A stretch of DNA of 64,000 bases from Numidum massiliense. GTDB lineage: Bacteria; Bacillota; Bacilli; Thermoactinomycetales; Novibacillaceae. Shown one piece after another: positions 22,573-62,314 of the stretch (within the stretch, counting starts at the first letter, position 1; each line of letters opens with the position of its first letter). Position numbers and translations under genes: made by a program. The notes below the pieces were generated by a model that worked only from the letters and a program-made list of their open reading frames with translations, had not been told where the DNA came from and did not search any database. Location: NCBI RefSeq assembly GCF_001375555.1, contig NZ_CTDZ01000009.1, forward strand, positions 1,543,758-1,607,757, given 5' to 3'.

Positions 22573-22610
22573 TTGCGTTCCCCCCATCCTGTTTTTGTTA
22601 CCGATTTTTG

Positions 22611-23954
22611 TTACCGAGTCCCTTCGTTCATCGTATCATACGCCGGATCGATGTGCCTAGCTGCAGCCGCCATTTGTTCAAGCGCTCGTGCGGCTAGGGC
22701 GCTATACCGTTCTTTTTTGTTGCGAATTTTTTCTTGGAGCGGCGGAAATAAGCCGAAGTTGACGTTCATCGGCTGAAAGTGTTCCGGATCGGCTGTCGTA
22801 ATGTAGTGGGCCAAACTGCCGATCGCCGTCTCCTGTGGCAACGTGACGAGTGGTTCGCCCCGGACGTAACGCGCAGCGTTCATGCCAGCGATTAAGCCTG
22901 CTGCCGCCGATTCGACATAACCTTCTACGCCGGTCATTTGTCCGGCAAAAAACAAGTCGTCGCGCCGTTTAAACTGGTATGTCGGTTTCAGTAGCCGCGG
23001 CGAATTAATAAACGTGTTGCGGTGCATGACGCCGTAGCGCACGATTTCCGCCTCTTCTAGTCCCGGAATCATGCGGATGATGCGTCTCTGATCGCCCCAC
23101 TTCAAATGTGTCTGAAAGCCGACGAGATTGTACAGTGTGCCCGCACTATTATCTTGGCGCAGTTGGACGACGGCGTACGGCCGTTTTCCGGTCGCCGGGT
23201 CCGTGAGGCCGACAGGCTTTAGCGGGCCGAACGTCAGCGTCCGTCTACCGCGCTTCGCCAACACTTCGATCGGAATGCACGCTTCGAAGTATATTTCTTT
23301 CTCAAACTGCTTAAGTGGCATCGTTTCTGCTCCGATGAGCGCCTCGTAAAATACGTCGAACTCGCTTTCCGTCATCGGGCAGTTCAAGTACGCAGCCTCT
23401 CCTTTATCGTAACGCGAGGCGAGAAAGGCGCGTGTCATGTCGATGCTCTCTTTTTCAACAATTGGTGCGGCCGCATCGTAAAAGTACAAGTAGTCTTCCC
23501 CCGTCAATTCCTTGAGTGCTTGAGATAACGGGTCAGAAGTCAGGGGACCGGTGGCAATTACCGTCGGACCGTCCGGGACGGCAGTCACTTCCTCATTCAC
23601 GACCTCCACGAGCGGGTGCTGGTGCAGCGCGTCAGTCACCGCATCGACGAACCCATCGCGATCGACGGCGAGCGCCCCGCCCGCAGGCACACTGTTCGCA
23701 TCCGCACTTCTAATAATAAGAGAGTGCAACTTTCGCATGTCTTCTTTTAACACGCCGACCGCATTCGTTAACGAGTTCGCCCGTAGCGAATTGCTGCAAA
23801 CCAGTTCGGCGAACTTGCCGGTAATGTGGGCTGGTGTCTGCTTCACCGGCCGCATTTCGTACAACCGGACGGGGACGCCGCGCGAGGCGATTTGCCACGC
23901 GGCTTCGCTGCCGGCGAGTCCCGCACCGATGACAGTCACTTTTTGTTCTTGCAT
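22611..23954 (-). CDS. trmFO: Methylenetetrahydrofolate-tRNA (uracil-5-)-methyltransferase TrmFO
   Basis: FAD- and folate-dependent enzyme making m5U54 (ribothymidine) in tRNA. The FAD-binding [19 protein letters not shown] opens the protein; [22 protein letters not shown] and [20 protein letters not shown] carry conserved family motifs. Length 447 aa is normal. In B. subtilis xerC follows; here hslV follows after 38 nt. Confidence 0.97.
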
Positions 23955-42550: not shown

Positions 42551-42901
42551 CTACCCTTTTGGCTTAAATACGAGCGCGGCAAAAAAACTAAAAATGATTG
42601 CCGCGGAAATACCAGCACTCGTCACTTCAAAAATACCAGTAATGACCCCGATCGGTCCGTGGCGTTCTGCCTCGGCCAACGCCCCGCGCACGAGGGAGTT
42701 ACCGAAACTCGTAATTGGTACGCTTGCACCGGCACCAGCGAAATCGGCCAACGGCTCGTACAACCCGAGCCCACCCAATATAGCGCCGATGACGACGAGC
42801 GTACTCGTCATGTGTGCGGGGGTAATTTTTAACACATCTAACATTAATTGTCCAATGACACAAATTAACCCACCGACGACGAATGCCCACACAAAAGTCA
42901 T
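42551..42901 (-). CDS. spoVAEb: Stage V sporulation protein AE (SpoVAEb)
   Basis: Inner spore-membrane protein of the SpoVA channel for dipicolinic acid. Three to four hydrophobic segments fill 116 residues; GLYEPLADFAGAGASVPITSFGNSLVRGA is the conserved family block. I chose the ATG at 42901, 6 nt after AAAGGAGTG. It follows spoVAC by 30 nt; spoVAD, normally between them, is absent. Confidence 0.93.
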   Translation of the reverse strand: MTFVWAFVVGGLICVIGQLMLDVLKITPAHMTSTLVVIGAILGGLGLYEPLADFAGAGASVPITSFGNSLVRGALAEAERHGPIGVITGIFEVTSAGISAAIIFSFFAALVFKPKG

Positions 42902-42931
42902 CTTTTCCACTCCTTTTATTCGCGACACAGG

Positions 42932-43426
42932 TTACGACACTAGTCCTAATGATTGTAGGATAATTTTTATCATCGCCATAAGAAAGGCGGCTACGACGCC
43001 GAAGACGATGACCGATCCAGTCAACTTAAACATATTGCCCCCTACCCCGAGTACAAGCCCTTCCGTGCGGTGTTCGAGCGCCGCAGCAGCTGTCGCATTA
43101 GCAAAACCGGTGACAGGCACCCCGGCGCCTGCTCCGGCCCATTGCCCGAGCGAACTGTACTGACCTAAACCTGTCAACAACACCGCGATAAAGATGAGTG
43201 TCGCTACCGTCGGGTCACCGGCGTCCTTTTCCGTAAAATCAAAGTAACGCATATACATGTAATGGAGGACTTGTCCAAACAGACAAACTCCCCCGCCGAC
43301 GAAAAAAGCGCGCACACAGTTGCGGCCGACAGGACGTCCAACTTCCCACTTTTTTACAAATGCTGCGTATTGTCGCTGTTCTTCTTGTTGCTGTTCTTTC
43401 GTTCCTTTGCTGCGCGTGCCAATCAT
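42932..43426 (-). CDS. spoVAC: Stage V sporulation protein AC (SpoVAC)
   Basis: Membrane subunit of the SpoVA calcium-dipicolinate channel (mechanosensitive in B. subtilis). A charged Gln/Glu-rich N-terminus (about 35 residues) precedes several hydrophobic helices; GGGVCLFGQVLHYMY, GLGQYSSLGQWAGAGAGVPVTGFANATAAAALEH and FKLTGSVIVFG are typical. Length 164 aa. GAGGTGAGACG precedes the ATG. It is divergent from the YhcN-like lipoprotein gene. Confidence 0.94.
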   Translation of the reverse strand: MIGTRSKGTKEQQQEEQRQYAAFVKKWEVGRPVGRNCVRAFFVGGGVCLFGQVLHYMYMRYFDFTEKDAGDPTVATLIFIAVLLTGLGQYSSLGQWAGAGAGVPVTGFANATAAAALEHRTEGLVLGVGGNMFKLTGSVIVFGVVAAFLMAMIKIILQSLGLVS

Positions 43427-43540
43427 CGTCTCACCTCAAATGCGTTAGTCACTCTTTTTGATTGTGATACATATTTAGCGATTTTATGCAAACAATGTTA
43501 AGCAAACGATGAACAGAGACGATTGCGAGGAGTTACGACG

Positions 43541-44206
43541 ATGAGCAAAACGATGAGCAACGTACGGTCTTTAAAAAAACAGGACGCGAGGGCTAGGAAA
43601 GTTAAGACATTCGTTAGTCGTAAGGGTTACAAGGCGCTTTCGATGATAAGCACTGTCGCGGTCACCGTTACAATCAGCTGTGTGCTGACGTTAACAGCAA
43701 CCGGCTGCACCAAAACAGCGCCGCCGAAACAAGGCGCCACGACGAAAGGGACGCAAACAAAAGATAAGCGCACGGACAAAAAACGTGCGACTATGAAGCA
43801 AACGGAAAAGAAGCTGCAGGCGGAAAAGAAGCATACGGCACAGAAACATACCGTACAAAAGTATACGGTGCACAACTTTAGTCACGACAATTTGTCTAAT
43901 GTGGCCGAACAAATCGTCAAACAGGACAAGCGCGTCACTGACGCCACCGCCGTCGTACGCGGTGATGACTTATACACGGCGCTCAAAGTAACGAATTTTA
44001 ATCGTTTGCGCATGAAACAAATTCGCGAGAAGGCACACAGTAAGTTGCGCGCCCAATTTCCCGATCACGAGATTCACGTGACGACTGACAATAAATTATT
44101 CCTCGAACTACAGCGGATCAACACCGAAGCGAAAAAGAAACGCCAACCAAAAAAGAAGGACTTAATGAAAAAACTACAAAAAATTCACGATGGCATGAAA
44201 GGTTAA
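43541..44206 (+). CDS. YhcN/YlaJ-family sporulation lipoprotein
   Basis: 221 aa, secreted and probably lipid-anchored: a long basic N-region, a hydrophobic stretch (TVTISCVLTLTATGC) ending in a lipobox-like ATGC with Cys. A Lys/Thr/Gln-rich low-complexity linker follows; the C-terminal half is the YhcN/YlaJ domain (NVAEQIVKQDKRVTDATAVVRGDDLYTALKV). Members are forespore-expressed and affect spore germination. I chose the ATG at 43541, 8 nt after GAGGAG. The signal peptide is atypically long, so lipidation needs checking. Confidence 0.8.
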   Translation: MSKTMSNVRSLKKQDARARKVKTFVSRKGYKALSMISTVAVTVTISCVLTLTATGCTKTAPPKQGATTKGTQTKDKRTDKKRATMKQTEKKLQAEKKHTAQKHTVQKYTVHNFSHDNLSNVAEQIVKQDKRVTDATAVVRGDDLYTALKVTNFNRLRMKQIREKAHSKLRAQFPDHEIHVTTDNKLFLELQRINTEAKKKRQPKKKDLMKKLQKIHDGMKG

Positions 44207-44281: not shown

Positions 44282-44878
44282 TCATTGACCTCGTTCTTCC
44301 TCCAATTTTTCCCACTCTTCGCGCAGGATACCCATATTGACCGAATCGTAGTAGCGGCCATTCACTAAGCGCGCTTTGCGAATGCGGCCTTCGTGCTGCA
44401 TGCCTTGCTTTTTCGCCAGTTTGATCATCCGCTCATTACCGGACCACGTCGAAATGCCAAGCCGCACGATATCCATTTGCGCAAACAAATAGCCGATCCA
44501 CAGGCGAAACGCCTCGGAACCGTATCCACCGCTCCAGTAGTGTGGGTCGTAAATACAGATCCCGATGTTTAACCAGTTCGTACTTTGGTCAATCCAGTAG
44601 CGGCGCACGATCCCAATAAACTGCCCATCCACTTCAATCGCTAGTTTTTTCGGTACCACCAGTTTGTACGATTGGGCAATATCCCACGTTTGCTCTATAA
44701 AAAACTCGTCCTTCGTACTTTTTTCTATCTTTTTAAAAGGCGTGTACCATTTCATCCACTCCGGCTCAGCGCATTCAAAATGCCAATACCACAAAGCTGC
44801 AATATCGGATTCACTCACGTCTCGCAACACGACTTTTTTTCCTTCTATACGTACATCTCCTCGCTTTTTTTCAGCCAT
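44282..44878 (-). CDS. GNAT family N-acetyltransferase (RimJ/RimL-like)
   Basis: Transfers an acetyl group from acetyl-CoA to an unknown acceptor. The fold is shown by KKVVLRDVSESDIAALWYW at the N-terminus, LNIGICIYDPHYWSGGYGSEAFRLWIGYLF (CoA-binding strand and helix, near residues 108-137) and RLGISTWSGNERMIKLAKKQGMQHEGR. Length 198 aa. Its gap upstream (44879-45209) has no gene on the minus strand. Confidence 0.9.
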   Translation of the reverse strand: MAEKKRGDVRIEGKKVVLRDVSESDIAALWYWHFECAEPEWMKWYTPFKKIEKSTKDEFFIEQTWDIAQSYKLVVPKKLAIEVDGQFIGIVRRYWIDQSTNWLNIGICIYDPHYWSGGYGSEAFRLWIGYLFAQMDIVRLGISTWSGNERMIKLAKKQGMQHEGRIRKARLVNGRYYDSVNMGILREEWEKLEEERGQ

Positions 44879-45153
44879 TGTAAACGCCTCCTACGTTTCA
44901 CTTAGCATAAGTTTACCTCAAAAATGGCGGTTGCGGCACACCTGTCCTACTGAAGTAAATAAAAAAAGTGTCAACCGCAACTTTTAATCGTTGGCAAAAA
45001 ACTTTCGTTTATAAAGCGCTTACGACTCTAATGGTATCCGTCCTGCCCTATTTTAGAATTTAAAGGCCCCCGGAACATTTTTTCCTCTCGAAAGCGATAT
45101 TACGCCGATATACAGCATACTGATATAATAAGCCCCCATATTCAACGCATTAC

Positions 45154-45179
45154 CAAAAATTGTACACAAAAATTGTACA
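45154..45179. repeat. Perfect 13-bp tandem repeat upstream of the 34-aa peptide
   Basis: CAAAAATTGTACA occurs twice without spacer (45154-45166 and 45167-45179). Each copy contains TGTACA. The tract lies 31 nt before the peptide start and downstream of a TATAAT at about 45123-45128, so it could be an operator or an unstable promoter element. Confidence 0.85.
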
Positions 45180-45209
45180 TTAACGCGCGAAGAAAGGTGG
45201 TGAATCGCG

Positions 45210-45314
45210 ATGGGTGATTGGATCTTGCTCCTTGCTGCCCTCATCAAGCTAGCAGACACGATCATCCAATTTAAAGGCAGTAAGGGAAAAAACCCCCCAC
45301 CGTGCGATGAGTAA
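45210..45314 (+). CDS. Putative 34-aa hydrophobic peptide
   Basis: Begins MGDWILLLAALIKLADTIIQF and ends with a Lys/Pro/Cys polar tail. AGGTGGTGAATCGCG precedes the ATG, and a TATAAT-type -10 is 85 nt upstream. The N-terminal half is a short amphipathic or membrane helix. The layout resembles small membrane peptides such as type I toxins or modulin-like peptides, but no antisense RNA is obvious. It is not in an annotated family that I recognise. A long perfect hairpin follows it. Confidence 0.55.
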   Translation: MGDWILLLAALIKLADTIIQFKGSKGKNPPPCDE

Positions 45315-45330
45315 AGGCCTTTTCCCTGTG

Positions 45331-45363
45331 AGAACCTAGAGAAGCCCCCCTTCTCTAGGTTCT
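45331..45363 (+). terminator. Hairpin between the 34-aa peptide and ytpB
   Basis: A perfect 13-bp stem (45331-45343 with 45351-45363) with a loop of seven bases, mostly C, is followed by TACTTCATTAT on the plus strand. It lies between the convergent peptide and ytpB genes and could end both. Confidence 0.65.
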
Positions 45364-45391
45364 TACTTCATTATATTCTACCACGTCATTT

Positions 45392-46465
45392 TTATGTAGT
45401 CCTAAAAGCTGCGAACCGGTGCAAACGGCTGTACACATAAAGCAACATTGTGAGAGAACGCGATTTTTTCATGACAGCGCGGGAAACGTCACGCACGTGC
45501 GGCTGCTCGCGCACTTTGTTGTCTGATAAGTACAAACCTAAGAGCCCTTCAACGATCATCGTATGGTACGCCTTGTCAGGTAGGGAGGCGAGGTGCTTGC
45601 GTGACTGCTCGCGGAAATAAGTGAGGCGCTCGATCGTATCATCCGTCCCGAAGTAGTACGAGCAAAAATTCAGATCGCCCCCCTCTTCATCTTCTTTTTG
45701 GTCGATTAAGTAGTCTAACAAAATATGCAAGGCGGCAATCCACGGAAAGTAAGCGCGGGTTATGTCCTGCACCCGCCGTTCACTCACACCTTCTTCACAT
45801 GCGACTTGAAAGAGCATAAACACACCGAGGGTCGATCCTGTCGCTGCGGCAAACTCGTACCACCTCAGTTGCGGATATTGCGCCGCGTGCGCCTGCCACC
45901 AGTCTTTTAGCTGTTGCTCACGCGCACTCGGGTGGATATGTTTATACACTTGTAAATCCGAGTAAAGTGAGACGAAACGGACGATCGGCTCCTGCACGAG
46001 CCCGTAATGCGGCAACGTCGCGATGTGCTGCTGACACGTCTCGACGAGTGCGCGTAAATAGCCACTATCGTCTTTCTCCTGGCGGTATTTATAGTAATCG
46101 GCACACGTCGCCTCAGGGTCGACGGCATCTAACATCGCTTGGTGCAATTGGCGAAAGTCAGTAGGATCGAGCGACGTACTGCGGTCACACAAGTTATCCA
46201 AATAGTCGCTGATCGTCTGAAAGGCGACGATGAGCGGCACTAATTTGTGGCGGTGACGCAAATCGGCGGCCGCGTAAAAGCTACCGCCTTCGCAATGAAA
46301 TTGTTTGCTTTTTATGCTCGCCAACGCTTGCTTGCGCAATTCGGGGTCGTTAATGTGCTCCGCCTTTTGTCGCCAAAAGCGCAATTGTTCGTGCACGAGT
46401 GGAAACACGTGGCGGTACATGCGGAAAAGTAATTTAAACGTTGAACGCGGTGTTTGATCTGGCAC
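45392..46465 (-). CDS. ytpB: Tetraprenyl-beta-curcumene synthase (YtpB-like)
   Basis: DUF2600 family enzyme that cyclises C35 heptaprenyl diphosphate to sesquarterpenes in Bacillus. The Asp-rich segment DYLDNLCDR near residues 86-94 and DYLIDQKEDEEGGDLNFCSYYF are characteristic. 357 aa; GTG start. In B. subtilis its products (sporulenes) are found in spores, and dxr and uppS in this window feed or share the isoprenoid pool. No squalene-hopene cyclase-like partner is seen nearby. Confidence 0.9.
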   Translation of the reverse strand: MPDQTPRSTFKLLFRMYRHVFPLVHEQLRFWRQKAEHINDPELRKQALASIKSKQFHCEGGSFYAAADLRHRHKLVPLIVAFQTISDYLDNLCDRSTSLDPTDFRQLHQAMLDAVDPEATCADYYKYRQEKDDSGYLRALVETCQQHIATLPHYGLVQEPIVRFVSLYSDLQVYKHIHPSAREQQLKDWWQAHAAQYPQLRWYEFAAATGSTLGVFMLFQVACEEGVSERRVQDITRAYFPWIAALHILLDYLIDQKEDEEGGDLNFCSYYFGTDDTIERLTYFREQSRKHLASLPDKAYHTMIVEGLLGLYLSDNKVREQPHVRDVSRAVMKKSRSLTMLLYVYSRLHRFAAFRTT

Positions 46466-62250: not shown

Positions 62251-62314
62251 TTACTAACGCATGATCTTACTAACGCATGATCTTACTAAGGCATGATCTT
62301 ACTAAGGCATGACC
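62251..62314. repeat. Four 16-bp tandem repeats covering the fabG 3' end
   Basis: TTACTAACGCATGATC or a one-base variant (TTACTAAGGCATGATC) occurs at 62251, 62267, 62283 and 62299, head to tail. The last unit includes the fabG stop codon, so three further copies follow the gene in its own reading direction. Confidence 0.9.

Follow-up and report, generated by a model that had tools for sequence, protein, structure and literature searches.

A conserved hydrophobic peptide gene faced by a predicted antisense RNA: a candidate chromosomal type I toxin-antitoxin-like module in Thermoactinomycetales

Is a solitary 34-codon hydrophobic frame in the genome of Numidum massiliense a chance reading frame, an ordinary small gene, or half of a toxin-antitoxin pair? 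The frame (45210..45314, + strand) lies in the window, the 64,000-nt stretch of DNA analyzed here, and it stands isolated, since both flanking genes are on the opposite strand: a GNAT acetyltransferase (44282-44878, - strand) and, convergent with the peptide gene, a DUF2600 protein (45392..46465, - strand; PF10776, 1.1e-143) that we take to be YtpB-like. A SpoVAC/SpoVAEB pair (42551-43426) and a YhcN/YlaJ-type sporulation lipoprotein gene (43523-44206) are found nearby. We favor, with a probability of roughly 0.58, the reading that this chromosomal locus is a module like those of type I toxin-antitoxin systems, with a peptide from a new family and txpA/RatA-like action. The peptide and the antisense RNA that faces it may thus be a previously undescribed toxin-antitoxin pair.

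The elements described in the first-pass annotation, namely a TATAAT, a perfect 13-bp tandem repeat with two TGTACA, a ribosome binding site, and the 34-codon frame, were all found. The TATAAT (45124..45129, + strand) is preceded by TGA, giving the extended -10 TGATATAAT, and is the predicted promoter element of the peptide mRNA, with no acceptable -35 upstream of it in a promoter scan (0 sigma-70 sites). The repeat consists of two copies of CAAAAATTGTACA (45154..45179, + strand) within the predicted 5' leader, each with one TGTACA (at 45161 and 45174). A Shine-Dalgarno-like (SD) sequence, AAAGGTGGT, occupies 45193..45201 on the + strand, with AAAGGTGG beginning at 45193, and a G-rich SD precedes the start codon in the 16 family loci. 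The hairpin after the frame also exists, its reported 13 bp being an understatement: it is an intrinsic terminator with a 17-pair stem and a T-rich tail (45328..45366, + strand).

We compared families f1 to f6 within the order, f1 being the window's own family with two genomes, that of the window and G001. A search with the 34-amino-acid peptide found a 69% identical copy in G001, the only other f1 genome compared. A family profile of ten members, f1 copies included, gave clear hits in 16/42 genomes from the order, covering all 16 of f1 to f4 (f1 2/2, f2 10/10, f3 1/1, f4 3/3) and none of the 26 of f5 and f6 (0/23 and 0/3). At the limit used, E<=1, some match appeared in 34/42 genomes; apart from the f4 paralog, we read the weak matches (best E 0.025) as noise. 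Because this profile included the f1 copies, another was built from f2-f4 members only and used to rank 1170 open reading frames (ORFs), taken from one 13-kb G001 locus and the window; E values were adjusted to the size of a genome. The two top ranks went to the f1 peptides, with E 5e-6 for G001 and E 0.012 for the window copy, ahead of the next ORF at 8.6. By itself the window copy would be borderline, and its predicted membership in the family rests on G001. Purifying selection is evident in f2, with a median dN/dS of 0.067 over 37 of 45 pairs, the other 8 lacking a finite dS. Since the ORF is conserved, it is not a chance frame, a reading that we reject on the G001 copy, the distribution in 16/42 genomes, the dN/dS, and the f2-f4 profile ranking. 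The 34-codon frame is a real gene common to related bacteria, and the conservation in close relatives that the first-pass annotation had named as one half of its refutation test was borne out.

At 34 amino acids and with a conserved frame, the product is a small hydrophobic peptide of the size expected in type I toxin-antitoxin systems (<60 amino acids). It matched no described type I toxin peptide family: Pfam gave no family at E<=0.1 for two representative peptides, and neither NCBIfam (two peptides) nor PADLOC (three peptides) gave one at E<=1, while Pfam with ten A2 members returned only three weak, unrelated names (E>=0.099). Type I systems are difficult to detect, their peptides being very small and quick to diverge. 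The peptide and its paralog were also undescribed in the titles and abstract openings searched, which is weak evidence of absence, as most subscription journals lie outside that scope. A mobile or phage origin was rejected on searches of phage records (no relative of one f2 peptide at E<=1), viral contigs (no confirmed member of the family), and plasmids (none found with the distant G131 peptide as the only query). Distant short peptides encoded by other Bacilli (among them G131 and G105) resemble the helix only and were excluded from the family counts, and matches in L059-L061 appeared to be unrelated frames. Other Bacilli (L066, L058, L067, L068, L082) carry peptides of 25 to 40 amino acids that follow the pattern ME.WILL.TAVINL.TA and are preceded by a conserved leader, GAGGGTGTGA..., and a second small hydrophobic ORF seems to follow them in at least some loci.

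The N-terminal half of the window peptide is hydrophobic (mean Eisenberg hydrophobicity 0.45 over residues 2-23) with a polar stripe of K13, D16, T17, and Q20, and the tail is polar. The helix keeps its polar positions on one face across the family: K/R13, D/E16, and Q20 (15/16; H in G003). The hydrophobic moment is marginal in the family, being reached by 0.010-0.067 of shuffles, and not significant in the window copy (0.379). This weak moment and a net charge of 0 count against reading the locus as a toxin-antitoxin module.

Features that speak for such a module lie on the opposite strand, where the first-pass annotation had seen no evident antisense RNA. Just past the sense terminator, a -10-like TATAAT (45370..45375, - strand) faces the gene. 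It would drive a predicted antisense RNA of about 77 nt with two hairpins (45287..45363, - strand), a candidate RNA antitoxin, whose 5' hairpin is the complement of the sense terminator and whose own intrinsic terminator (45287..45323, - strand) is nested in the last codons, the stop, and the start of the 3' untranslated region (UTR). Both the -10-like box and the nested terminator recur in 16/16 loci, contrary to that earlier impression. The box reads TATAAT or, in G001, TATAAA in f1, CATATAATG or CATATATTG in f2, CATAAGAATA in f4, and CATAGGATA in f3; its degeneration in f4 and f3 counts against the module. The -35, which also counts against it, is non-consensus: no sigma-A -35 was found for the antisense promoter, a TTGACA-like hexamer being present in none of the 16 loci (best 4/6), and sporulation sigma factors were considered as an assumption of ours.

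The T-run of the antisense terminator begins 9-22 nt 5' of the stop codon, within the ORF, and the sequence of the stem varies among families with its pairing kept. When the protein was kept constant, codons were drawn anew according to local usage, and the 3' UTR was shuffled over 40 nt (400 draws per locus), 7-188 draws contained a terminator of any kind and 0-41 one that equalled or bettered the real one, with the window among the weaker cases (34/400); because the loci are related and codon usage was taken from a relative for five genomes, these are not independent tests. The lysine codons under the T-run are AAA-AAA in 13/14 f2-f4 loci, against a nearby AAA use of 0.49-0.69. Taken by itself, the terminator hairpin has the more stable fold on the antisense strand in 16/16 loci, but it was selected on that strand; for the full predicted RNA, the antisense strand is the more stable of the two in only 13/16, with one tie and two reversals, which counts against the module. 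Across the 16 loci, the predicted RNAs are 73-95 nt long with two hairpins. The window RNA (45285-45363) folds with a minimum free energy of -40.6 kcal/mol (z -5.63), and four further ones gave z scores of -3.67 to -6.15. If transcribed, each would by position be complementary to the final 19-31 nt of the ORF and to the sense terminator in the mRNA. In Rfam searches, the window gave no RNA family at gathering thresholds, and six loci gave only tRNA, a ylbH leader, and two sub-threshold matches. The ylbH leader (RF00516, 79.8 bits; L041:645-762, - strand) belongs to the G003 locus, where it lies close to the recG-site peptide.

The main rival explanation dispenses with a separate antisense RNA: the nested terminator would simply end the mRNA of the convergent gene, and the peptide would be an ordinary small protein gene. 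The genomic setting gives this reading its weight. Among ten 13- to 14-kb loci compared (nine from f2/f4 and one from G001) and the recG flanks, the peptide adjoins recG, convergent with it, in 14/14 f2-f4 genomes (13 recG flanks and the G003 flank), and in f1 it adjoins DUF2600 and not recG; recG lies about 30 kb from the peptide in G000, and the recG 3' flanks in G000 and G001 have no peptide. Every locus examined has recG or DUF2600 in convergent orientation to the peptide, and f1 and f2-f4 each have a convergent gene that needs a terminator, which counts against the module. In f2-f4, moreover, no terminator other than the complement of the sense terminator was seen between the recG stop and the nested one, and peptide-less f5/f6 genomes often have a terminator-like hairpin directly 3' of recG (judged by eye, uncounted). 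However, a convergent mRNA leaves unexplained a two-block motif after the recG stop, ACAAGTTTTA-N15-CATATAATG, which was found with <=3 mismatches in 13/14 peptide genomes of f2-f4 (6 mismatches in G015) and in 0/17 peptide-less f5/f6 genomes (best 5 mismatches), the 17 being those of 26 that yielded recG loci. The first block is not a sigma-A -35, and in f4 the best-scoring register is N13 rather than N15. Since the motif was derived from the positives, the contrast is an association and not proof of a promoter. The rival also fails to explain why the f1 module keeps an antisense -10 and terminator beside a different convergent gene. We consider it unlikely, if the most serious of the alternatives to an antisense-controlled toxin.

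A second rival grants the peptide its membrane location and denies it toxicity: it would be a membrane peptide with a regulatory or structural function, whether or not under antisense control, for example modulating a membrane protein or taking part in sporulation or envelope stress. Inheritance in synteny and the strength of purifying selection would suit such a housekeeping role, as would the position among sporulation genes. Against this, the anatomy of a dedicated antisense gene suits a product that is kept off, as do the leaders of f2-f4. There the predicted sense promoter is TTTACA-17-TATATT in 14/14 loci (TACATT in two), the predicted leaders are 151-252 nt long, and the SD is sequestered in 13/14 folds (mean unpaired <=0.34; 0.70 in G003). 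The window mRNA folds with an exposed SD (0.74 unpaired) and a start codon that is paired in part, and its exposed SD counts against the module. Because removing the first 30 nt did not release the SD in most loci, a 5'-end anti-SD switch freed by processing, plausible on inspection by eye, is unsupported and was rejected; exposure clearly shifted in 2/16 folds, up in G015 and down in G000, with the 5' end of G001 being a guess. The neighborhood, too, differs between f1 and f2-f4. A non-toxic peptide is improbable in our view, even less expected than the convergent-gene terminator. The two alternatives offered by the first-pass annotation, a small regulatory membrane peptide or a type I toxin-like gene, both fit the evidence and the conservation in relatives, and the role of the product is predicted from sequence.

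The same annotation had seen operator-like repeats upstream of the frame, which would make the unit a repressor-controlled peptide gene. A perfect 13-bp duplication does exceed first-order chance: 60 simulations of the window by a first-order Markov model yielded none of >=13 bp. But the real window holds further perfect tandem duplications, with a 13-bp unit at 22592-22617 and 16-bp units at 62251 and 62275 (62251-62306), so the repeat is not special to the peptide gene. It is absent in the sister genome G001, and it sits at 45154-45179, downstream of the -10 in the predicted leader, where it folds as a 6-bp RNA hairpin. An operator role was thus rejected as very improbable, and the tandem repeat is probably incidental or a 6-bp RNA hairpin.

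A paralogous peptide (ME[KR]W[VIL]Q...) was found with a separate profile in 14/14 f2-f4 genomes and 0/28 others, as an ORF at about 1501 in match orientation (L085-L098) that lies upstream of tRNA-Arg(CCT) in 13/14 genomes. All 14 paralog promoters carry a LexA-like site with 1-3 mismatches, scored against what we take to be the 14-bp LexA consensus, that runs into TATAAT. The recG-site and window copies score 2-4 mismatches, and the window gene has no convincing LexA box over its promoter, its best site (2/14 mismatches, 45072-45085) being 5' of the -10. Many paralog promoters (L085-L098) also have TTTTGTCGAA or near variants, presumably resembling a Spo0A box, upstream of the LexA-like box (uncounted). 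In a tentative extension that we regard as doubtful, the core genome may hold a two-branch dormancy or membrane-depolarization circuit, with an antisense-held peptide (at recG in f2-f4, at DUF2600 in f1) and a LexA-controlled homologue at tRNA-Arg in f2-f4. If true, this would give the Bacillota an SOS-linked equivalent of TisB that is inherited vertically and comes from a peptide family not yet described. The purpose of type I systems is debated. A module retained in four families at constant chromosomal positions, one for f2-f4 and a different one for f1, and kept under purifying selection would indicate a cellular role over selfish maintenance, and an SOS-controlled paralog would tie the family to DNA damage.

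In the mechanism that we propose for the toxin-antitoxin module, the sense promoter would give an mRNA encoding a short membrane peptide, hydrophobic and in part amphipathic, and the opposite-strand promoter just past the sense terminator would give a two-hairpin antisense RNA ending within the 3' end of the coding sequence. The two RNAs would be complementary over the mRNA 3' end; their pairing would let RNase III degrade the mRNA and hold peptide levels down, and if antisense synthesis lagged, the peptide would enter the membrane and slow or stop growth. Antisense transcription, RNase III control, membrane insertion, and toxicity are what we infer from this arrangement. Pairing of RatA, SR4, and SR6 in Bacillus subtilis likewise exposes the toxin mRNA to RNase III decay.

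According to the accessible text of two sources, the type I antitoxins of B. subtilis act on the toxin mRNA by binding its 3' end and promote its decay (PMC6562991, PMC3531473), with a complementarity of 100-140 bp (PMC6562991). The module described here resembles txpA/RatA, bsrG/SR4, and yonT/SR6 in its short hydrophobic peptide and in complementarity at the mRNA 3' end, as far as those sources describe them (PMC6562991, PMC3531473). Its predicted overlap is shorter than the 100-140 bp given in the consulted part of PMC6562991, which counts against the module reading, and so does its chromosomal, syntenic, single-copy inheritance, the B. subtilis systems being prophage-borne. Unlike those three systems, it has no peptide family match. 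With tisB/IstR-1 of Escherichia coli the likeness is one of anatomy, with no claim of homology: the window gene lacks a convincing LexA box, the LexA-like boxes that recall tisB belong to the f2-f4 paralog, and the shared trait is a short membrane peptide whose helix bears its charged residues on one side (for TisB, in the portion of PMC8309996 available), with K13, D16, and Q20 at 220, 160, and 200 degrees in the window peptide. In that same portion, IstR-1 acts at a standby site in the 5' leader (PMC8309996), whereas the predicted antisense RNA here would act at the 3' end.
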